From: Candidatus Altarchaeum sp.
Lineage (GTDB): Archaea > Altiarchaeota > Altiarchaeia > Altiarchaeales > Altiarchaeaceae
Assembly (NCBI GenBank): GCA_018260755.1
Contig: JAGTWP010000026.1
Coordinates: forward strand, 1 to 18,123
Length of the DNA: 18,123 nucleotides
Direction: 5' to 3'
Below the pieces are notes generated by a model. That model was not told the DNA's origin. It was given only the letters and a program-made list of their open reading frames with translations, and did not search any database. Within the stretch, counting starts at the first letter, position 1. The number at the start of each line of letters is the position of its first letter. Positions 1,104 to 17,102 of the stretch are shown here, in pieces. The position numbers and the translations under genes were made by a program.

Positions 1104-2066
1104 TTATTTTTTTATCCTGCATATCATTCTATCTTTATATTTCAAAATTTCAGCGACATTTAAAAATTTAACCTTACTTAACTCCTTACTTAAAATTTCC
1201 TCGTCTTTAAAACATGCAATATGTAATTTTGCAATATTTAAATTTGTTGCTTTGCTTAATGCGATTGCAGAGGTTGTAATTCGCGGATTAATTTCAATCA
1301 GATAAATTTTTTCGTTTTTAGTATCAATTACAAAATCTATTCCGATATAACCCTTCAGGTCTAAATGCATACATACGAGCTTTGAATACTCAAAAATTTT
1401 TGACTTTATATATTCATTTGCTTGAAATGGAACAACACCTCCATCATAAGATACCTTTCCTTTATCAAAATTTATGTATTGTTTGTTTAAAGAAACAGGC
1501 TCAACTTCTTTGCCTGCAAATAAACAAACAGATGTATGAATTCCGTCAATAAATTCCTGAACGATAAATTTTTCGTTAAATTTTTGTTTTCCTGATTTGA
1601 CAAATCTTTCATAGCACTCATTATCTTTAAAAACATATATGCTTTCGCATCCTGTCCCATATATTGGTTTTATTATTATCGGAAAATCAGCAAGATTTGG
1701 AAATTTAGTAGTTTTTGGCATTGGAATCTTTCCTTTTAATTCCTTATACAGAGAAAATTTGTTCAGTGTTTTGTTAAGTGAATCTATTGGCGAAATGAGA
1801 ACTTTGTCAAAAATGTTGTGACGATTTAAAAAATTTGAAATTTCCAGTAATTCATAATTCGGTGCTATTAAAATTGTATTGTCAGAATTATAAATATTTT
1901 TCAAAATTTTTTCATACAAGTGCTCGCCATTGTTATCTGACATTGTGCAGGTATTAATTCCTTCTTTTTTTAAGCCATAAATCATTAAATTTCGCATTGC
2001 TCTTCCTTCTATGCTCAAATTTTTATCATTTACAGCGGTTGCATATTCAAATACGAAGATTTTCAT
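1104..2066 (-). CDS. mfnD: Tyramine-L-glutamate ligase, ATP-grasp family (methanofuran biosynthesis)
   Basis: MfnD uses ATP to join tyramine to the gamma-carboxylate of glutamate, an early step of methanofuran assembly in the cytoplasm. The 320-aa length suits the family. It opens with MKIFVFEYATA (family hallmark FEYA). The ATP-grasp lysine block is FPIIIKPIYGTGCESIYVF near residues 128-147. This is followed by IVQEFIDGIHTSVCLFAGKE, VSLNKQYI, GYIGIDFVID and the metal-binding IYLIEINPRITTS near 255-267. These match the archaeal MfnD pattern closely, so a generic RimK-like ligase is less likely. The gene starts only 6 bp after mvaD and is surely cotranscribed with it. The mfnF remnant downstream supports the methanofuran assignment. 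Confidence 0.8.
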   Translation of the reverse strand: MKIFVFEYATAVNDKNLSIEGRAMRNLMIYGLKKEGINTCTMSDNNGEHLYEKILKNIYNSDNTILIAPNYELLEISNFLNRHNIFDKVLISPIDSLNKTLNKFSLYKELKGKIPMPKTTKFPNLADFPIIIKPIYGTGCESIYVFKDNECYERFVKSGKQKFNEKFIVQEFIDGIHTSVCLFAGKEVEPVSLNKQYINFDKGKVSYDGGVVPFQANEYIKSKIFEYSKLVCMHLDLKGYIGIDFVIDTKNEKIYLIEINPRITTSAIALSKATNLNIAKLHIACFKDEEILSKELSKVKFLNVAEILKYKDRMICRIKK

Positions 2067-2072
2067 TTAATT

Positions 2073-3038
2073 TTAAAATAAATCTTCCTTAATCACTCTT
2101 GCCTTTCCTCCTGGTTTTGATTCTAAAATTTCAAAATTTAATTCGCTAATTCTTTCTTTGACCTTTTCTTTATCCTTATGCAAACACAAAACATGAACAT
2201 TTGGACCTGCATCAATTGTAAAATAGCATTCAATTCCGTTCTTTCGCAAATTCCATACTTCCTTCATAATTTTCAATGTCTCAGGCTCCCAGTAAAACAA
2301 TCCCGAATTCATCATCACAGTATGCATAGATATGCAGTCCTTTTCAGCATAAGTTCCGAGCGTTTTCAAATTTCTATCAATTATAGATTTTCTCACAAAA
2401 TTTAAATTTTCATTAACTTCGGCAAGCCGTGCATAAAAATAAGGATTAAATTTCTGCATCCCTGTTGTTGATGAGACATCTTTTTTTTCCTTTTTTACCA
2501 TAACTATTAAATCATAAATTTCAAAATATTCGGAGTTTGCAATTGAAACCGAGTATGAATCATCATTACAGGTTCCGGTTAGCCATTCTGTGAATCCGTC
2601 GGGAATTGACCTGCATGCAGAACCGCTTCCTAATCTTGCCAATATGCTTAGTTCTTTTTCGCTCAAATTTAAATTTAAGGCAGATGCACTTGCCACTGTT
2701 AAAGCAGCAAATCCGGACGCCGAAGATGCGATTCCGCTTGACATAGGAAAGTTATTCTCGCTTACAACCTTTGCCTTTAAGGTAGTATTTACCTGATTTC
2801 TAAATCTGTCTATAAATTTAATTACTCTTTCCTTTGCTGTTCCTTCCGCAACATTTTTGTTAATTATGACAACGTCCTCATCAAAGTCATTAAATTCAAC
2901 CGTTGTTTTTGTCCATAAATTTCCCAGATTCATTGAAATGCTATTGTTGAGCGGAATTCTCAAATCTTCGTCCTTTTTTCCCCAATATTTAACGAATGCA
3001 ATATTAGGATGTGATATTGCTGTTGATTTAAATTTCAT
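2073..3038 (-). CDS. mvaD: Diphosphomevalonate (or phosphomevalonate) decarboxylase
   Basis: This GHMP-kinase-fold enzyme performs the ATP-dependent decarboxylation of (di)phosphomevalonate in the mevalonate pathway that supplies archaeal isoprenoid lipids. The 321-aa length is typical. Motifs in order: NIAFVKYWGKKDE with the active-site Lys17; the phosphate-binding loop MSSGIASSASGFAAL (residues 99-113); GSGSACRSIPDGFTEW (138-152); SSTTGM (189-194); and FTIDAGPNVHVL with catalytic Asp276. All key residues are present, so it should be active. I cannot tell by eye whether it prefers diphosphomevalonate (classical) or monophosphomevalonate (some archaea). It is the first gene of the mvaD-mfnD-mfnF' operon. 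Its first nine codons are part of a 36-bp sequence repeated at 5689-5724. A TATA-like stretch (3097-3112) lies about 60-75 bp upstream of the ATG. Confidence 0.9.
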   Translation of the reverse strand: MKFKSTAISHPNIAFVKYWGKKDEDLRIPLNNSISMNLGNLWTKTTVEFNDFDEDVVIINKNVAEGTAKERVIKFIDRFRNQVNTTLKAKVVSENNFPMSSGIASSASGFAALTVASASALNLNLSEKELSILARLGSGSACRSIPDGFTEWLTGTCNDDSYSVSIANSEYFEIYDLIVMVKKEKKDVSSTTGMQKFNPYFYARLAEVNENLNFVRKSIIDRNLKTLGTYAEKDCISMHTVMMNSGLFYWEPETLKIMKEVWNLRKNGIECYFTIDAGPNVHVLCLHKDKEKVKERISELNFEILESKPGGKARVIKEDLF

Positions 3039-3048
3039 TTTAAAATTT
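3013..3048. repeat. 36-bp direct repeat, copy 1 (mvaD 5' end)
   Basis: These 36 bases cover the first codons and start of mvaD plus 10 bp upstream. They recur without a mismatch and in the same orientation at 5689-5724. Together the two copies bound the 2.64-kb segment that carries the double-TIR gene and its 184-aa partner. Confidence 0.95.
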
Positions 3049-3474
3049 GTAGTTTTAAGTTTTTGATTTTTATGGAGTTTAAAAATTTTCTTGCCGTTAT
3101 ATATATTATAATAATACTTTTAGGTAGTGATAAAGAGGTAATGATATTTTGTAACAATTTTATGCATTTTACCCTTTCCAAATATTGAATTTTGGTTTAA
3201 ATATTAAATTTTATCATTACTATTTTAGCACGACCCAATATTTTACACCCGATATACGATTCATTAATCTGCTTTAATAGTGCAAAGATAGTGGGACTTA
3301 CTCAAAACATACATAAATTCAGGGATTTTAAGGCCTTTTTACGTATTGAACTACGTAAGTCCTGAATAGTAGATTGACTAATGTTGCAAAATAACTTTTT
3401 CAGAACCATTCCTTGCACCATCATTGAGTCAACCAAAACAAATGAATGCGTAAAGCATTGTCTACTACAAAAAA
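3049..3474. other. Intergenic region with hairpins and possible mobile-element remnant
   Basis: No convincing gene was found in these 426 bp. The mvaD-proximal part is AT-rich and holds a TATA-like stretch at 3097-3112. A 9-bp inverted repeat (GTAATGATA at 3138-3146, TATCATTAC at 3212-3220) follows. The part from about 3230 to 3474 is less AT-rich than other spacers. It contains a perfect 7-bp hairpin (TTACGTA 3339-3345, TACGTAA 3352-3358, 6-nt loop) and longer-range arms (GGACTTAC 3294-3301 with GTAAGTCC 3355-3362; ATTCAGG 3317-3323 with CCTGAAT 3361-3367). It could be an insertion-sequence end, a structured RNA or a terminator. I cannot decide which. Confidence 0.45.
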
Positions 3475-4029
3475 TCATATAAGTTTCATCTTTTTTAACT
3501 TTTCTTCAATTCGTTCTATTGCTTCAAGATGGGCATTTGAACCGGTCTCAAATATTTTATCAAAAAGAGATCTATAAAAAGACATTCCATTTGTCATATA
3601 AGTAATTCCAATAATTCTTTTATCTTTATCTCCTTTCCATCCTATTAAAGTATGATGATCGCCGATAATACAACTTATAAAGTCATCATGTTCTACATAT
3701 CGTAATGCAACAGTTTCCCAATGTGATGTTAGTTCCATCCAACTTTTTTTGATCTCTTCCCATCCATTTTTTCCGTTCTTTTTCACATATTCAATTATTA
3801 CATCTTCTGTTCTAGGAAGTGAAAATAAATATTCAACAAATATCTTATCTTCTTTTATTTTCTTCATTAGCACCTCGTAGTATTCCTTCCTTTCTTTTGT
3901 TGCTCTTTCACTTGGAAGAATTAATGCAGGCGTCTTTGCGGCACCTCCAAAAAAATATGTTTCATTTACTATTGAGATTGCTCTCTTATAAAATGCTTCA
4001 TTTCCAACCTCTTCTTCAACAACAACCAT
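3475..4029 (-). CDS. 184-aa partner of the double-TIR protein; PLD-like/sensor-type domain suspected
   Basis: I do not recognise this as a named family. It has no signal peptide or membrane segment and is rich in charged residues. The ordered pattern, with an N-terminal helix, VEYLFSLP near residues 66-73, and then a closing IIGDHHTLIGWKGDKDKRIIG (about 121-141) followed by a helix SFYRSLFDKIFE, resembles the last half of degenerate phospholipase-D-like domains used as sensors in archaeal regulators. No HKD catalytic motif is visible. A similar closing block (GIVFGENSNEALIWWKP, then VITELFNRNY) ends the neighbouring double-TIR protein. The gene starts 45 bp after that protein's stop, on the same strand, so the two are probably cotranscribed. 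A role as partner, regulator or immunity protein of the TIR effector is inference. Confidence 0.6.
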   Translation of the reverse strand: MVVVEEEVGNEAFYKRAISIVNETYFFGGAAKTPALILPSERATKERKEYYEVLMKKIKEDKIFVEYLFSLPRTEDVIIEYVKKNGKNGWEEIKKSWMELTSHWETVALRYVEHDDFISCIIGDHHTLIGWKGDKDKRIIGITYMTNGMSFYRSLFDKIFETGSNAHLEAIERIEEKLKKMKLI

Positions 4030-4074
4030 TTTAATGACAAATTATTAATAAATTTAGTTTTTTAAATTTAGTTT

Positions 4075-5556
4075 TTAAATAAAAATTTTTGAAAATTCTG
4101 AAAATGTATCAAAAGATAATTCTTTGTTATAATTCCTGTTAAAAAGCTCTGTTATTACATCTATTTCTTCTTTACTATCCTCAAACATTACGTATACTAT
4201 ATCTTCATTTGCTGGTTTCCACCATATTAACGCTTCATTTGAATTTTCACCAAAAACAATTCCTTCATCTTTAGAAGGTGTTTGTAAAATACTTCCAAAA
4301 GGATCAATTAATTTTAAATATGGCTTTCCAAGCAATATATTCATATCTTTTAGCAATTTATCCTTTGTCTTTTGCAGATTATTTATTTTTTCTACTGTGG
4401 TTTTCCAAGAAAATAAGAGAAATATGTTTTTATCATTTTTCATTGCATTGTCAAGCAATTTTATAACTTCCTTCATATATCTTTCACTTAAGCAACTAAT
4501 GGGAGCCACTGGAGAATAAAAATAAATTCTTTTGTTTTTGTTAATTATTTCTTCAATATTTTTCACAAATTCCGACTCGCTCATAAGTTTCAGTCCTTTT
4601 TTTTCTTTGAGGAGTTCATGCATGCTAATTTTATATAATTCTTCAATTTTTGTACCAAATTCTTTTGCTACTTCTTCTTTACTTTCAAATGGTTCTTGCC
4701 TTAACCATTGAAGAGTATTTACTTCTTCAGGAATTTCCGCTCCCTTCATACAGACACACAAAATAAAGTTTTCCTTTTCTACACTCTTTGCTACATAGAA
4801 TTCTTTTTTTAAAGATTCGCTGGTTTCCCATGCTTCTGAAGTAAGAATGAGAACAAAATAATCTGCTTTTTTTATCTTCTTAAATCTATATTTCTCTTCA
4901 TTTTCTTCCCCTGCAGGCATATCTTCTGCAGCAACAAAAGCTTCTTCAATTTCTTCTAGCCCTTTAAAAAAGTGTTTTAAATGTATTGCTATATCTTTTC
5001 CTATGTCTGTTTCATAAGCTATAAAAAATTTTAGTTTTCGTTTCTTTAATTCTTTAATTTTTCTACTTTCTTGGAGGAGTTCATGCATGCGATCTTCATA
5101 TATTTGGAGGAGTTCATGCATGCGATCTTCATATATTTTTTTAATTTTTGTACCAAATTCTCTTGCTACTTCTTCTTCATTTTTAAATGGTTCTTGCCTT
5201 AACCATTGAATAGTCTTTACTTCTTCAGGAATTTCCGCTCCCTTCATACAGACACACAAAATAAAGTTTTTCTTTTTTACACTCTTTGCTACATAGAATT
5301 CTTTTTTTAAAGATTCGCTGATTTCCCATGCTTTTGGAGTAAGAATGAGAACAAAATAATCTGCTTTTTTTATCTTCTCAAATCTATACTCCTCTTCATT
5401 TTCTTCCCCTGGAGAAATATCTTCTGCAGCAACAAAAGCTTCTTCAATTTCTTTTAGCTCTTCCAAAAAGTATTTTAAATGTATTGCTATATCTTTTCCT
5501 GTGCGTGTTTCATAAGCTATAAAAAATTTTAGTTTTTGTCCTTTTAAATTTTCCAT
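4075..5556 (-). CDS. Tandem double-TIR protein with C-terminal PLD-like/sensor-type domain
   Basis: Two TIR domains lie at about residues 9-140 and 175-306. Each has a first strand KFFIAYET, a box with FVAAED and pGEENEE, KADYFVLILT, and then ESLKKEFYVAKS. The Glu in that helix (Glu86 and Glu252) sits where the NAD-cleaving glutamate of TIR NADases lies. The domains are about 80% or more identical and their DNA is also very similar, so the duplication (about 498 bp) is recent. The linker carries an 11-residue repeat, IYEDRMHELLQ, twice, and MHELL returns after the second TIR. Residues about 325-493 form a different domain (RIYFYSPVAP, later GIVFGENSNEALIWWKP) resembling catalytically dead PLD-like sensor domains. 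TIR proteins of this kind often deplete NAD in antiviral defence. That role is inferred here. The protein is cytoplasmic, with no membrane segment. The cassette is bounded by a 36-bp repeat. Confidence 0.83.
   Translation of the reverse strand: MENLKGQKLKFFIAYETRTGKDIAIHLKYFLEELKEIEEAFVAAEDISPGEENEEEYRFEKIKKADYFVLILTPKAWEISESLKKEFYVAKSVKKKNFILCVCMKGAEIPEEVKTIQWLRQEPFKNEEEVAREFGTKIKKIYEDRMHELLQIYEDRMHELLQESRKIKELKKRKLKFFIAYETDIGKDIAIHLKHFFKGLEEIEEAFVAAEDMPAGEENEEKYRFKKIKKADYFVLILTSEAWETSESLKKEFYVAKSVEKENFILCVCMKGAEIPEEVNTLQWLRQEPFESKEEVAKEFGTKIEELYKISMHELLKEKKGLKLMSESEFVKNIEEIINKNKRIYFYSPVAPISCLSERYMKEVIKLLDNAMKNDKNIFLLFSWKTTVEKINNLQKTKDKLLKDMNILLGKPYLKLIDPFGSILQTPSKDEGIVFGENSNEALIWWKPANEDIVYVMFEDSKEEIDVITELFNRNYNKELSFDTFSEFSKIFI
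5071..5136 (-). repeat. Two perfect 33-bp tandem units in the TIR linker
   Basis: Units at 5071-5103 and 5104-5136 are identical and in frame. They encode IYEDRMHELLQ twice. A third, partial match (GAGGAGTTCATGCATGC) occurs near 4609-4625, after the second TIR domain. This marks the edge of the larger internal duplication of about 498 bp. Confidence 0.92.
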
Positions 5557-5688
5557 TTTTTAGGGAAATAATAGTGTCAGTGTTAAATATCCATAATCAA
5601 AACAAAATTAATAATTATTGCTCACGATAAACAATTAATTATGCGTGAAATAATTTAATTCTTACACTTACAATTAACGCAATTTTGA

Positions 5689-5724
5689 GATATTGCTGTT
5701 GATTTAAATTTCATTTTAAAATTT
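5689..5724. repeat. 36-bp direct repeat, copy 2 (orphan mvaD 5' fragment)
   Basis: This is an exact copy of 3013-3048. On the minus strand it reads the mvaD start and MKFKSTAIS, then diverges and stops after 19 codons. It marks the distal edge of the TIR cassette. Because TATA-like sequence lies just beyond it, this could be the site of the ancestral mvaD promoter. Confidence 0.93.
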
Positions 5725-5791
5725 TAAAATTTTATGAAAATTTATAATTTGTTAAAATAATAATTTATAATTCGTTAAAATTAAAGATTAG

Positions 5792-5895
5792 ATTAAAGAT
5801 TAGATAAAAAAGATTAGATTAAAGATTAGATAAAAAAGATTAGATTAAAGATTAGATAAAAAAGATTAGATTAAAGATTAGATAAAAAAGATTAG
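5792..5895 (+). repeat. Minisatellite: four perfect 26-bp tandem units
   Basis: Four identical 26-bp units lie end to end (5792-5817, 5818-5843, 5844-5869, 5870-5895), built from the core AAAGATTAGATAAA. Shortened, degenerate units continue to the KH start codon at 5958. The plus strand is purine-rich with almost no C. The array fills the 5' untranslated or promoter region of the KH gene. Confidence 0.93.
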
Positions 5896-5957
5896 ATAAA
5901 GATTAGATAAAGAATATTAAATTAAAGATTAGATAAAGAATATTGGATAAAGATAAG

Positions 5958-6494
5958 ATGCAATACACAAAAATAGCAGAAGACCGAATTGGTGTGCTGA
6001 TAGGAAAGGATGGAGAAATAAAAAAGAAAATAGAGGAAAAAACGCATACGAAGATTACAGTCACCGGAACAGAGGTAGATATTTCCGGCTCACCTTATTA
6101 CGAAATGCTTGCAGAAAATGTAGTTGATGCAATAAGTTTGGGATTTAGTCCGGAAAAGGCAATATTATTGACAAAAGAGTATAAGGATTACACTTATGAA
6201 TTCATTTTTCTATCGGAAAAAAAATTTCTGCCCCTCAGAGGAAGGGTTATAGGAACAAACAGGAGTGTTCTGGATAGCATAGAAAAAATTTCAGAGTGTT
6301 ATGTGTGTGTGGGAAAAGAAGGCATAGGTATAATTGGTGATTATGAGGATGTTGAAGATGTAAAAGAGGCAATATTAATGCTCATTAATCACGGAAAACC
6401 CGGAACTGCATACGGATTTTTAGATAAGAGAAAAAAACAACGTAAAGATAGAGAAATGAGAAGAGTAATAAATTCGGAAGACAAATTAGAATAA
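5958..6494 (+). CDS. Archaeal KH-domain RNA-binding protein, PNO1/Dim2-like
   Basis: The archaeal PNO1/Dim2 homologue binds the 3' end region of pre-16S rRNA and helps small-subunit maturation. The protein has 178 residues from the ATG at 5958. KH domain 1 has the classic loop IGVLIGKDGEIKKKIEE (GKDG at 16-19). It is followed by the family sentence VVDAISLGFSPEKAILL (55-71). A second, degenerate KH (LRGRVIGTNRSVLDSIEK, 93-110) follows, and the tail has HGKPGTAYGFLDKRKKQRK. I prefer ATG 5958 over the in-frame TTG at 5943, because homologues begin a few residues before the first KH strand and the TTG lies in the degenerate repeat. No clear Shine-Dalgarno is present. It converges with the regulator gene at 6539. 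Confidence 0.85.
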   Translation: MQYTKIAEDRIGVLIGKDGEIKKKIEEKTHTKITVTGTEVDISGSPYYEMLAENVVDAISLGFSPEKAILLTKEYKDYTYEFIFLSEKKFLPLRGRVIGTNRSVLDSIEKISECYVCVGKEGIGIIGDYEDVEDVKEAILMLINHGKPGTAYGFLDKRKKQRKDREMRRVINSEDKLE

Positions 6495-10551: not shown

Positions 10552-10619
10552 CTTTATTAAATTTAAAGAATTAAAGTTAATTATTATATAGTTGTTTTAA
10601 TTGATGTTCAAATTTCAGA

Positions 10620-10793
10620 ATGGCAAGACCAATTAAACTCGTGACGACGATAACAGGAGATGATGCAGTAAGGTTTTTGGAGGAAATGGATAGAATAGAG
10701 TCCCTAAAACCAAGAGATAAAGAATATCAAGAAAGAAAGAAATACTTTGCATATTGTGAAAAACTTGCAAGACAGGTGGGAGCGGTTAAATAA
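10620..10793 (+). CDS. Small protein, copy 1 (57 aa), putative antitoxin of the GNAT toxin
   Basis: The protein begins MARPIKLVTTITGDDAVRFL and ends YCEKLARQVGAVK. I do not know a named domain. Short archaeal and cyanobacterial proteins with a similar opening (a basic start, then GxDAxRFL) tend to sit beside GNAT-type toxin genes, so an antitoxin role is plausible but inferred. Start: ATG 10620. The upstream ATG at 10604 is out of frame here although the equivalent one is in frame in copy 2, which favours the conserved ATG-GC-AGA start in both. The 3' end overlaps the GNAT remnant by 8 bp. It is almost identical to copy 2 at 10900, with differences only in the last 11 residues. Confidence 0.75.
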   Translation: MARPIKLVTTITGDDAVRFLEEMDRIESLKPRDKEYQERKKYFAYCEKLARQVGAVK

Positions 10794-10840
10794 TTTGGGG
10801 CTCAATAATGTCGCGATATATTAACACATTTTTTTCTTCT
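10786..10840 (-). pseudogene. Remnant of a second GNAT gene (3' end only)
   Basis: On the minus strand this reads EKNVLIYRDIIEPQII then stop, matching the last residues of the intact GNAT (EKTVLMYRDILERN). Everything upstream is missing, replaced by the second duplication unit. It overlaps the small gene copy 1 convergently, just as the intact pair does. Confidence 0.75.
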
Positions 10841-10899
10841 AATTTAAAGAATTAAACTTAATTATAATATATCTGTTTTAATTGATGTTCAAATTTAAA

Positions 10900-11070
10900 A
10901 TGGCGAGACCAATTAAACTCGTGACGACGATAACAGGAGATGATGCAGTAAGGTTTTTGGAGGAAATGGATAGAATAGAGTCCCTAAAACCAAGAGATAA
11001 AGAATATCAAGAAAGAAAGAAATACTTTGCATATTGTAGAAAACTTGCGATACAGGTGGGGGCAGTTTAA
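10900..11070 (+). CDS. Small protein, copy 2 (56 aa), putative antitoxin of the GNAT toxin
   Basis: Identical to copy 1 for the first 46 residues. It then has RKLAIQVGAV in place of EKLARQVGAVK. It converges with the intact GNAT gene and overlaps it by 4 bp, so antisense transcription across the junction is likely. The ATG at 10900 is chosen because only this start is shared by both copies. An in-frame ATG at 10885 would add five residues. The functional inference is as for copy 1. Confidence 0.78.
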   Translation: MARPIKLVTTITGDDAVRFLEEMDRIESLKPRDKEYQERKKYFAYCRKLAIQVGAV

Positions 11071-11615
11071 TTGCGCTCAAGGATATCGCGATACATTAAC
11101 ACAGTTTTCTCTTCTCTAATTTTTGATTTTATTTTCTTAAAATTGTTGTTTTCATAGAATGCAATTACTTCTGGTTTGTTGTAAGCATCAACGCAAATAT
11201 ACCTACATCCTATGCTATCAGATTGTATCAATGCAGTTCCAAAAACTACATTAATTATTTTAGTCCCTATTCCTGCTCTTGAGAAGTTTTTATCTATTGC
11301 CATCCTTCCAATTTTAATTGCAGGATATGTTTTCTGCCTCTTTTTTAATTTCTCCATTATATTTTTTGCTTTGCCTTTAATCTCAATAGCATCATTGGAT
11401 AAAGAATAGTATCCAATCAATACTTCGCCATAAAAACACAGATATGTAACTGCAATTTTTCCTTTCTGGTAGGGGACTGCATCTTCCTTTAAAAATTCAT
11501 TAAGGTCACAATCTCCGCAATCAAATTCTTTTGTAAACCTAAGGTTATTTTCCGATAGTTTTTCAATTCGCAATTGCCGCATGTTTACTTCAGTTGCAGA
11601 TTTATGTTCCCTCAT
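11067..11615 (-). CDS. GNAT-family N-acetyltransferase, TacT-like toxin candidate
   Basis: The layout is that of TacT/AtaT-type toxins, which acetylate aminoacyl-tRNA: an F-x-C-G-x-x-x-LN-x-FL opening (FDCGDCDLNEFLKEDA, residues 31-46), a strand VLIGYYSLS (65-73), YPAIKIGRMAID (97-108), the acetyl-CoA loop SRAGIGTKI (112-120), ICVDAYN and the FYENNNF motif (153-159). The loop is slightly off the usual R/QxxGxG/A. The length is 182 aa from ATG 11615. Met12 (11582) is a plausible alternative start, just ahead of the first strand. The convergent 56-aa gene may be its antitoxin. Ordinary GNATs of unknown substrate remain possible. Confidence 0.8.
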   Translation of the reverse strand: MREHKSATEVNMRQLRIEKLSENNLRFTKEFDCGDCDLNEFLKEDAVPYQKGKIAVTYLCFYGEVLIGYYSLSNDAIEIKGKAKNIMEKLKKRQKTYPAIKIGRMAIDKNFSRAGIGTKIINVVFGTALIQSDSIGCRYICVDAYNKPEVIAFYENNNFKKIKSKIREEKTVLMYRDILERN

Positions 11616-13497: not shown

Positions 13498-13506
13498 CTT
13501 AAAAAA

Positions 13507-14962: not shown

Positions 14963-15047
14963 CAAAATTTTCATTCTTTTTGAATAAAATTTCCCCTGCC
15001 AGTTTGTTCAGAAATGTTCCCGCGCACGCACTTTCAAAAGCATTATC
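14963..15047 (-). pseudogene. Orphan fragment of nnr 3' region (85-bp direct repeat)
   Basis: This matches 15758-15842 inside nnr in 82 of 85 positions and in the same orientation. Read in the nnr frame it gives DNAFESACAGTFLNKLAGEI, then LFKKNENFA and a stop. All three differences change amino acids (G to K, T to A). The normal nnr ending is missing. It lies 29 bp downstream of the TIR gene stop, so the TIR gene is trapped between nnr and this fragment. Confidence 0.93.
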
Positions 15048-15076
15048 TTTTCAAACAAAGCAAGATTAATGGTGTT

Positions 15077-15541
15077 TTATTCTTGATTAAGAAGGCTTCC
15101 ATTTGGCCACAAACTTATGATTTTAATCTCAATCCCATTTTTCTTTTCTACACTTTCTCTTTTAAAAGGAATATATTCGTAATCCTTTTGAATCATTCCT
15201 AAATCTTTTATTCCTTCCTCAACAAACAGCAACATCTTTTTCTTACTAAAAAAACCGTAACTTATTTCGTGATATATCCACGGAGATGTTATCCATTCAT
15301 CTTTATCATTGTGATACCTTTTTGTAAGAATACCGCAAAAAACATTACTTTTATCTATGTTCGGAAGGATTTTTTCTGTTAATGTTTTTGCTTCCGGTTT
15401 GGCGCCGGTTGTAACTTCAAAATATTTTTCCAATTTGTCTATAATCCAACCTACAATTATTTTATCCCTTTCATCAAAACTATGAGCAACAAATGCTCCA
15501 ATTTTTTCGTTTTTACCTTTCAATTGAGGATGTTTAACCAT
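15077..15541 (-). CDS. Single-domain TIR protein
   Basis: The 154-aa protein is essentially one TIR domain. It opens IGAFVAHSFDERDK (14-27, strand A and the BB-loop Ser/Asp region). It continues with IIDKLEKYFEV, TLTEKILPNIDKSNVFCGILTKRY (about 53-76) and SPWIYHEISYGF (86-97). Glu92 aligns with the NAD-hydrolysing glutamate of TIR enzymes, and KMLLFVEEG supplies the next strand. There is no sensor domain, membrane segment or signal peptide. It is unrelated in detail to the double-TIR protein at 4075-5556, sharing only the fold. It lies downstream of nnr on the same strand, with a 148-bp spacer that could hold its own promoter. A NADase effector role is inferred. Confidence 0.78.
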   Translation of the reverse strand: MVKHPQLKGKNEKIGAFVAHSFDERDKIIVGWIIDKLEKYFEVTTGAKPEAKTLTEKILPNIDKSNVFCGILTKRYHNDKDEWITSPWIYHEISYGFFSKKKMLLFVEEGIKDLGMIQKDYEYIPFKRESVEKKNGIEIKIISLWPNGSLLNQE

Positions 15542-15689: not shown

Positions 15690-17102
15690 TTAAATTTTTC
15701 CAAACTCCCTACAAAATTTTATTGCCTCCGGAATTGTATCAACCAATTGCATTGCATCAAAATTTTCATTCTTTTTGAATAAAATTTCCCCTGTCAGTCC
15801 GTTCAGAAATGTTCCCGCGCACGCACTTTCAAAAGCATTATCATTCTGAGCATAAATCCCTGCAATAATTCCCGCAAGAACATCACCTGTTCCTCCGACA
15901 GTTAACCGTATGCAGTCCTTTTCATTAAATTTTAATCTTTTTGTATCTGCAATAATGTCGGTTTTTCCTTTAACAACAATCGTTGTGTTATACTTTTCCG
16001 CAAATTTTTGGACAACCTTTGCTTTATTTTCCGTATTTTCATTATACAAATCAACGCCGAATAATGCCTTAAATTCCCCTAGATGCGGAGTTACGATACA
16101 ATGCTCATTTAAAATTTCCGGATTTATTAACTTTAACGCCTCCGCATCAATAACAACCTTCTTTGATTTTTCAATCACCTCACTTATTAAGTCCTTGCTT
16201 GCTTTTAATGAAATTCCGTTTCCAATTGCTACGCAGTCAAATTTTGCATAATCAGCCACTAAATTTTGCAGATATTCTTCGTCCTCACAAGTAATAAAAA
16301 TAACCGTCGGGTCAAAAATCCGTCTCTGAACAAATTTCGGGGTTGCAAGATAAGTCAAATCATTAAATTTTTGCGATGCTTTTGCGGCTAAATAAGAGGC
16401 ACCTACATAATCCTTACTTCCTCCAATAACCAATGTTTTTCCGAAATAGCCCTTATGTTCATCACCTTTATACTCCTTTAAGGCAGTTAAAAAGTCCCCG
16501 ATTCCGCACATCCGCTCAATTTTTTTTGGAATTCCTATGCTTTTGACAATGGCATTGCCTGTTTTTCCAATTTCAAAAGAAACAACTTTGTCAGCGTTAA
16601 ATTGTACTTCATCGTCTCCTGTTGGAATATCAACGGCAAGTTTATAACAATTCAGTTCATTCGCTAATTCGTTTGCTAAATTTACAAGTGACTTTATTGG
16701 TTCCCTTAACTTTCCTTTGCTTCCGACACCGATTAAGGCATCAACAACAGCATCTGGTTTAAATTTTAAAATTTCTTCTTTTAGTTTTTCAATTTCACAG
16801 CGAGCATTTATTGTCTTTATATCCGCAAAATTTTTCAAAATGTCAAAATTTTTCTGATTTTCATAAGTTCTGTTTCCTTTCAAAGAATAAACCAGAATTT
16901 CCTTTCCTTCGGCGAGCAAATGTCTTGCAGCACATAATCCGTCTCCGCCGTTATTTCCTGTTCCGCAGAATATTAAAATTTTGCTAAAATTTTTGCATTC
17001 CTCTGCAACACATCTTCCGGCATTTTCCATTAAAAGTAATGTGTCAATCCCGAAAAATTTTGCATTTAAATCAATACGTTTTGTTTCTTTTTCCAAGTCC
17101 AT
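15690..17102 (-). CDS. nnr: Bifunctional NAD(P)H-hydrate epimerase / ADP-dependent NAD(P)HX dehydratase
   Basis: It repairs damaged hydrated NADH and NADPH. The N-terminal YjeF epimerase domain (about 1-205) has the loop GTGNNGGDGLCAARHL, VVDALIGVGSKGK and VDIPTGDDE with the catalytic Asp. The C-terminal ribokinase-like dehydratase (about 215-470) has GYFGKTLVIGGSKDYVGA, VTPHLGEFKALFG, VVKGKTDII, and the nucleotide-binding GGTGDVLAGIIAGIYA. The 470-aa length is normal for the fused protein. An 85-bp stretch encoding part of the last helices (15758-15842) is duplicated downstream of the neighbouring TIR gene. The nnr gene itself is complete and ends with the usual family tail (LVDTIPEAIKF). 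Confidence 0.92.
   Translation of the reverse strand: MDLEKETKRIDLNAKFFGIDTLLLMENAGRCVAEECKNFSKILIFCGTGNNGGDGLCAARHLLAEGKEILVYSLKGNRTYENQKNFDILKNFADIKTINARCEIEKLKEEILKFKPDAVVDALIGVGSKGKLREPIKSLVNLANELANELNCYKLAVDIPTGDDEVQFNADKVVSFEIGKTGNAIVKSIGIPKKIERMCGIGDFLTALKEYKGDEHKGYFGKTLVIGGSKDYVGASYLAAKASQKFNDLTYLATPKFVQRRIFDPTVIFITCEDEEYLQNLVADYAKFDCVAIGNGISLKASKDLISEVIEKSKKVVIDAEALKLINPEILNEHCIVTPHLGEFKALFGVDLYNENTENKAKVVQKFAEKYNTTIVVKGKTDIIADTKRLKFNEKDCIRLTVGGTGDVLAGIIAGIYAQNDNAFESACAGTFLNGLTGEILFKKNENFDAMQLVDTIPEAIKFCREFGKI

Follow-up and report, generated by a model that had tools for sequence, protein, structure and literature searches.

How did a gene for a protein with two TIR domains come to lie between two copies of the start of mvaD? 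The question is raised by contig C59 of a Candidatus Altarchaeum metagenome-assembled genome (MAG) of 1.32 Mb, here denoted G000; the whole stretch analysed, 18,123 nucleotides, is referred to below as the window. The close relatives used for comparison are the Candidatus Altarchaeum MAG CG2_30_32_3053 (G002), HURL_140 (G003) and a third genome of the same genus (G001); the genomes compared are MAGs with a completeness of 65-87%. The reading that we prefer, with a probability of roughly 0.45, is that recombination placed a small accessory cassette, comprising the double-TIR gene and the gene for its partner, next to mvaD and left the 5' end of mvaD as a direct repeat, i.e., an insertion with long target duplication, and that this occurred through import from a related Altarchaeum.

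The duplicated start of mvaD

The intact mvaD gene (2073..3038, minus strand), encoding diphosphomevalonate decarboxylase (TIGR01240 above the cutoff), starts with an ATG at 3038. Its first 26 bp together with 10 bp of upstream sequence (3013..3048, minus strand) recur as an orphan copy at 5689..5724, also on the minus strand, which abuts the cassette on one side and the spacer of a KH-domain gene on the other, and is oriented toward the latter gene. The two copies form a direct repeat identical in 36 of 36 bp; extended to 39 bp (3010-3048 and 5686-5724), the identity is 97%. With up to three mismatches allowed, the 36-bp pattern matches only these two sites in the window, none of 200 dinucleotide-preserving shuffles contains a match, and about 3e-12 chance matches are expected from the composition. 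Thus, the perfect repeat described in the first-pass annotation is confirmed and is not a chance match. The earlier caveat that the 36 bp might be a common dispersed repeat did not materialize either: elsewhere in the G000 genome, there are only two further matches, both partial (32-33 bp, 88%). As originally described, the double-TIR gene and the gene for its 184-aa partner (open reading frames 4075-5556 and 3475-4029) both lie between the copies, and neither a transposase nor an integrase is seen in the segment.

The orphan is the same as the resident mvaD start, including a base that is private to G000. Because the copies are identical and have this base in common, nothing in the orphan points to a foreign allele, and it appears to be young; it may be a remnant of a longer duplication or the product of a separate young event, and its youth is favoured by the identity to the resident gene. 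The orphan lacks the mvaD upstream region, so that import would require an extra deletion, which is a point against this explanation.

The region upstream of the functional mvaD gene (3039..3090, minus strand) is conserved in G001 and G002 and not significantly in G003: for the 50 bp upstream, 0, 1 and 46 of 500 shuffles, respectively, scored as well. Given this conservation, less convincing in G003, mvaD is predicted to retain a promoter region typical of the genus, and the earlier proposal that the gene now reads from a new upstream region is not supported. Between the partner gene and mvaD, about 330 bp (roughly 3079..3402) consist of dispersed repeats and do not belong to the cassette. These include an element of ~165 bp that is present more than 10 times in G000, a 72-bp hairpin element, GGACTTAC...GTAAGTCC, with ends similar to an IS that is located beside mvaD in G003, and a 22-mer (3381-3402) of which G001 contains about 30 exact copies.

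At the opposite side, the upstream end of the cassette (5557..5688) is found elsewhere only in G002, again beside an orphan mvaD start. The KH-side spacer follows (5725..5942); its part adjacent to the orphan is homologous to the spacer between the KH gene and mvaD in G003, and the rest is an array of 26-bp units. This array (5783-5950), upstream of the KH gene in G000, is not present in the G003 spacer. The KH-domain gene itself (arCOG04150; 5943..6494, plus strand) forms the flank of the insertion. Further along the window, near a GNAT gene, there is an intergenic tandem duplication of ~280 bp (10560-11122, 91%) that is single-copy in G003. An Rfam search of the window gave no match.

The double-TIR protein and its partner

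The double-TIR protein (4075..5556, minus strand; 493 aa) consists of two TIR domains and an unassigned C-terminal domain shared with G002. It matches Pfam TIR_2 in two stretches (8.8e-15; 55.7 bits, above the gathering cutoff of 28). The second TIR domain originates from a tandem duplication within the gene (4606..5560, minus strand; 498-bp period, 91-93%), and the G002 homologue contains a single TIR domain.

The partner gene (3475..4029, minus strand) encodes a protein of 184 aa that belongs to no known family, with no PADLOC or Pfam match. Among the 29 genomes of the class examined, it is found in the genus Altarchaeum only, with orthologues in G002 (79%) and, in two copies, in G003 (78% and 60%). 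Next to the two G003 copies, a 250-aa membrane protein is encoded whose C-terminal region weakly resembles the C-terminal domain of the double-TIR protein (31% over 87 residues, pairwise E 3e-5). The G003 locus (L060:1814-4174) comprises the two partner genes, the gene for the 250-aa protein and an isolated permease-like N-terminal fragment of 94 aa, and adjoins an ATP-grasp gene. Two candidate relationships of the partner were rejected: it has no relative among viral contigs that would make it a virus gene, and its comparison with the C-terminal domain of the TIR protein gave no support for homology. The AlphaFold models of the partner and of this domain have pLDDT values of 49 and 42, respectively.

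Thoeris systems are recognized by a ThsB-type TIR protein next to ThsA. Here, the TIR domain resembles ThsB profiles weakly (best 9.1e-6) and there is no ThsA-like match beside the TIR gene. Judging from the TIR domains and from the company of similar cargo at other loci, the cassette is probably a defence module that consists of a TIR effector and an uncharacterized partner.

The mvaD locus in related genomes

In G003, the KH gene (33616-34158) and mvaD (34295) are separated by 136 bp that contain one mvaD start and neither a TIR nor a partner gene. The spacer next to mvaD is different in this genome, so that the locus taken alone is a weaker single-copy empty site. Contig C169 of G002 (L026) retains the gene order TIR, partner, mvaD, and the upstream end of the cassette is found on contig C178 (L027; 80% over 121 bp). 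Within about 20 bp of this cassette end, there is an orphan mvaD 5' end of about 158 bp (L027:589-746) that contains a frameshift and shows 84-88% identity. The homology to the cassette extends up to window position 5576 on C169 and starts from 5568 on C178, and a dispersed repeat is located at the contig ends; on these grounds, the two contigs are taken as adjacent, a join made by homology rather than by assembly. In G002, the cassette has neighbours other than those in G000: a radical-SAM gene and, downstream, another gene. In G000, G001 and G003, mvaD is not found behind that radical-SAM gene.

The orphan at this cassette end is much longer in G002, so that the 36 bp are not a target duplication of fixed length. 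The insertion beside mvaD proposed in the first-pass annotation is supported by the G003 arrangement, whereas the special status given to a 36-bp duplication is not, considering the G002 orphan and the range from 33 to >500 bp at other loci. The same comparison bears on the action of a transposase or tyrosine integrase, provided in trans or since lost, for which the repeat would be a target duplication or an att site. The shared upstream end of the cassette in G000 and G002 and an IS-like sequence near mvaD in G003 could be taken to point in this direction; however, the length of the repeat varies between loci, even for the same cassette, the repeats derive from many unrelated genes, no such enzyme is encoded in the segment, and the insert ends of nine loci, inspected by eye, have no motif in common. 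Such an origin is therefore very improbable.

The position of mvaD varies within the genus: in G001 and G002 (L064 and L065, compared with window positions 1104-2066 and 5943-6494), the KH gene adjoins the ATP-grasp gene without mvaD. Counting the sites at which the four genomes are split 2:2, mvaD of G000 pairs with G001, G002 and G003 at 26, 15 and 13 sites, respectively, and the KH gene at 2, 1 and 70. The latter gene thus comes in two deep haplotypes, G000/G003 and G001/G002, and is an outlier, given that most of the other compared genes are about equally distant from the relatives. The difference between the two genealogies implies that recombination brought mvaD and the KH gene together in G000 and G003.

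Besides mvaD, single-copy empty sites were identified at four loci. The HD/TIR locus of G003 has a single-copy counterpart in each of G000, G001 and G002; the ATPase locus on contig C30 of G000 is single-copy in G003; the operon on C33 of G000 is missing from G003; and the window itself includes the empty site of a FAD gene (13498..13506), where G003 has a gene for a 148-aa protein and a 250-bp copy of the 3' end of the FAD gene. A search of the outer flanks of the wzx, MNT and Lhr loci detected no empty sites.

Recurrence of flanked accessory genes

The recurrence of this arrangement was assessed in 0.95 Mb (602 kb of G000 and 343 kb of G003) by counting low-copy repeats that are spaced 350-8000 bp apart and are at least 84% identical. 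All such pairs are direct (10 direct and 0 inverted in G000, 20 and 0 in G003); 200-kb samples of four other archaeal genomes yielded 0, 0, 2 and 5 direct and 1, 0, 1 and 0 inverted pairs. Many of the direct pairs consist of an intact core-gene end and an orphan copy with accessory genes in between, and the repeat lengths range from 33 bp to 555 bp. MITE-like pairs (the C30 restriction-modification and C75 methyltransferase loci) and paralogous genes were left out of the cases; the names of host genes beyond those scanned with profiles were read from the translations.

Among the cargo, PIN and MazE-like genes adjoin the gene for a CDP-alcohol transferase, PDC-S01 ATPases occur next to apgM and at other loci, an IrrE/RmrA-like gene is accompanied by DUF4411 and PLD genes, AbiEi/AbiEii lie next to the gene for a flippase, an HD gene has a TIR gene as its neighbour, and a NACHT/TPR protein is encoded alongside a PHP gene. 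Altogether, defence and toxin-antitoxin genes seem to move here without a visible transposase.

A second case is found in the window itself. An orphan copy (14963..15050, minus strand; 88 bp, 95%) of a part of the NAD(P)HX dehydratase gene and the in-place copy (15758..15845, minus strand) inside the intact gene (15690-17102) flank a single-TIR-like gene (15077..15541, minus strand) whose 154-aa product scores 21.1 bits, below the TIR_2 gathering cutoff. This case calls for caution because G003 has a homologue of the 154-aa protein without an NAD(P)HX orphan nearby. The latter observation would fit the view that the 36-bp copy arose by a local duplication, of a type common in this genome, that has nothing to do with the cassette, the latter having arrived separately. 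Direct repeats of low copy number and short range are indeed frequent (45 in the G000 sample), and the window contains both the intergenic tandem and the in-gene TIR duplications. Nevertheless, the orphan mvaD start lies at the same cassette end in G002, in a different genomic place, and spaced repeats around accessory genes recur, so that a local duplication appears improbable, although less so than the action of a transposase or integrase.

At the start of a DUF763-like gene (L101:1162-2283 and L132:14722-16275), a flanked insertion is present in both G000 and G003; the ATPase is intact in G003, and only remnants of it, along with another gene, are found in G000. Two further candidates were discarded. 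The apparent duplication of a radical-SAM 5' end in G003 turned out to be a repeat of the 3' end of a PDC-S01-like ATPase gene, and the ATPase 3' terminus, considered as a defined mobile end, corresponds to a conserved C-terminus with short microhomology.

Alleles of the two copies

Import and copying of the target differ in the expected origin of the orphan allele. At four loci with three relatives each, 39 of the 66 differing sites have an orphan state that is also present in a relative, compared with 6.0 expected if the orphan decays from its own functional copy; the underlying null model mutates the orphan only, so that changes in the functional copy inflate the observed number. The relatives are divided between the two copies at 20 sites, and because the simulation ignores changes in functional copies, this is the safer figure. 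The copies at the four older loci thus look like alleles of different species. This favours a homologous import that is one-sided, rather than copying of the target.

The main alternative is a true long target duplication, whereby an unknown process, with widely staggered nicks that are filled in, would copy 30 to >500 bp of host sequence on both sides of the insert, with subsequent decay of the orphans. The topology and the empty sites are equally expected under this scheme. The freshest pairs are 99-100% identical (apgM, 143 bp; PHP, 161 bp; UbiA, 555 bp), the long fresh cases (UbiA and the C33 gene) having identical copies, and the 36 bp at mvaD match the resident allele down to the private base. 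Furthermore, at loci with a single relative, the orphans have changed more than the functional copies, as a copied target would. For these loci and for the freshest pairs, a copied target fits equally well or better. Against it, both copies carry states found in relatives at the HD, wzx, Lhr and G002 mvaD loci, the functional copies at these loci have changed nearly as often as the orphans, and the range of lengths is very wide for a staggered cut. We consider a true long target duplication to be rather unlikely. The copy differences at third codon positions (28 of 55) do not separate the two models.

A possible route of insertion

Under the preferred import from a related Altarchaeum, the cassette would arrive on DNA of that relative that also carries the adjoining core-gene end. 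Homologous recombination within the core gene would join one side, and the other would be joined without homology inside the resident gene end, which would remain as an orphan and decay by mutation and deletion. Selection would retain only those events that leave one intact copy of the gene, which would explain why the repeats are gene ends. More tentatively, one-sided homologous import between species might serve Altarchaeum as a standing route by which defence and toxin-antitoxin genes are installed across the genus without transposases or integrases; the orphan gene ends would then be datable scars.

How defence genes move without the machinery of mobile elements is an open question and, to our knowledge, the mechanism behind the long-target-duplication pattern has remained unsolved since it was described in 2000 for restriction genes. 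Because this archaeal genus offers many insertions, both recent and decayed, along with unoccupied sites in sister species and copies that differ in their alleles, comparison alone can be used to test the mechanism. In addition, a flanking gene-end repeat can serve as a search key, requiring only sequence, for new defence or selfish genes.

Relationship to known systems

The loci described here differ from DDE transposons and IS, with their short duplication of fixed length, terminal inverted repeats and transposase, in that the repeat lengths vary and no transposase is present in the segment. Integrase-dependent islands possess an integrase gene and a constant att site, whereas here the segment contains no integrase and the repeats come from unrelated genes. 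Transposed genes of Arabidopsis are similarly flanked by direct repeats that are often host-derived and are also found at the orthologous target site, and a circle or ectopic recombination has been proposed for them (PMC2869330); the differences are the eukaryotic host and other gene families.

The closest counterpart is the arrangement named insertion with long target duplication (Nobusato et al. 2000, Gene 259:99, via PMC1643837, PMC3031569, PMC4978471). It is known from restriction genes of Helicobacter pylori and is reported to be frequently associated with restriction-modification genes. No report of it in archaea was found in the literature searched. The shared features are accessory genes between long direct repeats of variable length that are single in a relative, without a transposase; at the loci analysed here, direct copies flank the insert and their length is variable (36 bp for the G000 mvaD and about 158 bp for that of G002; 33 to 555 bp elsewhere). 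The present cases are distinguished by their occurrence at many loci of an archaeal genus, by a cargo of TIR, toxin-antitoxin, AbiE and PDC-S01 ATPase genes, and by older pairs of copies that look like different alleles.
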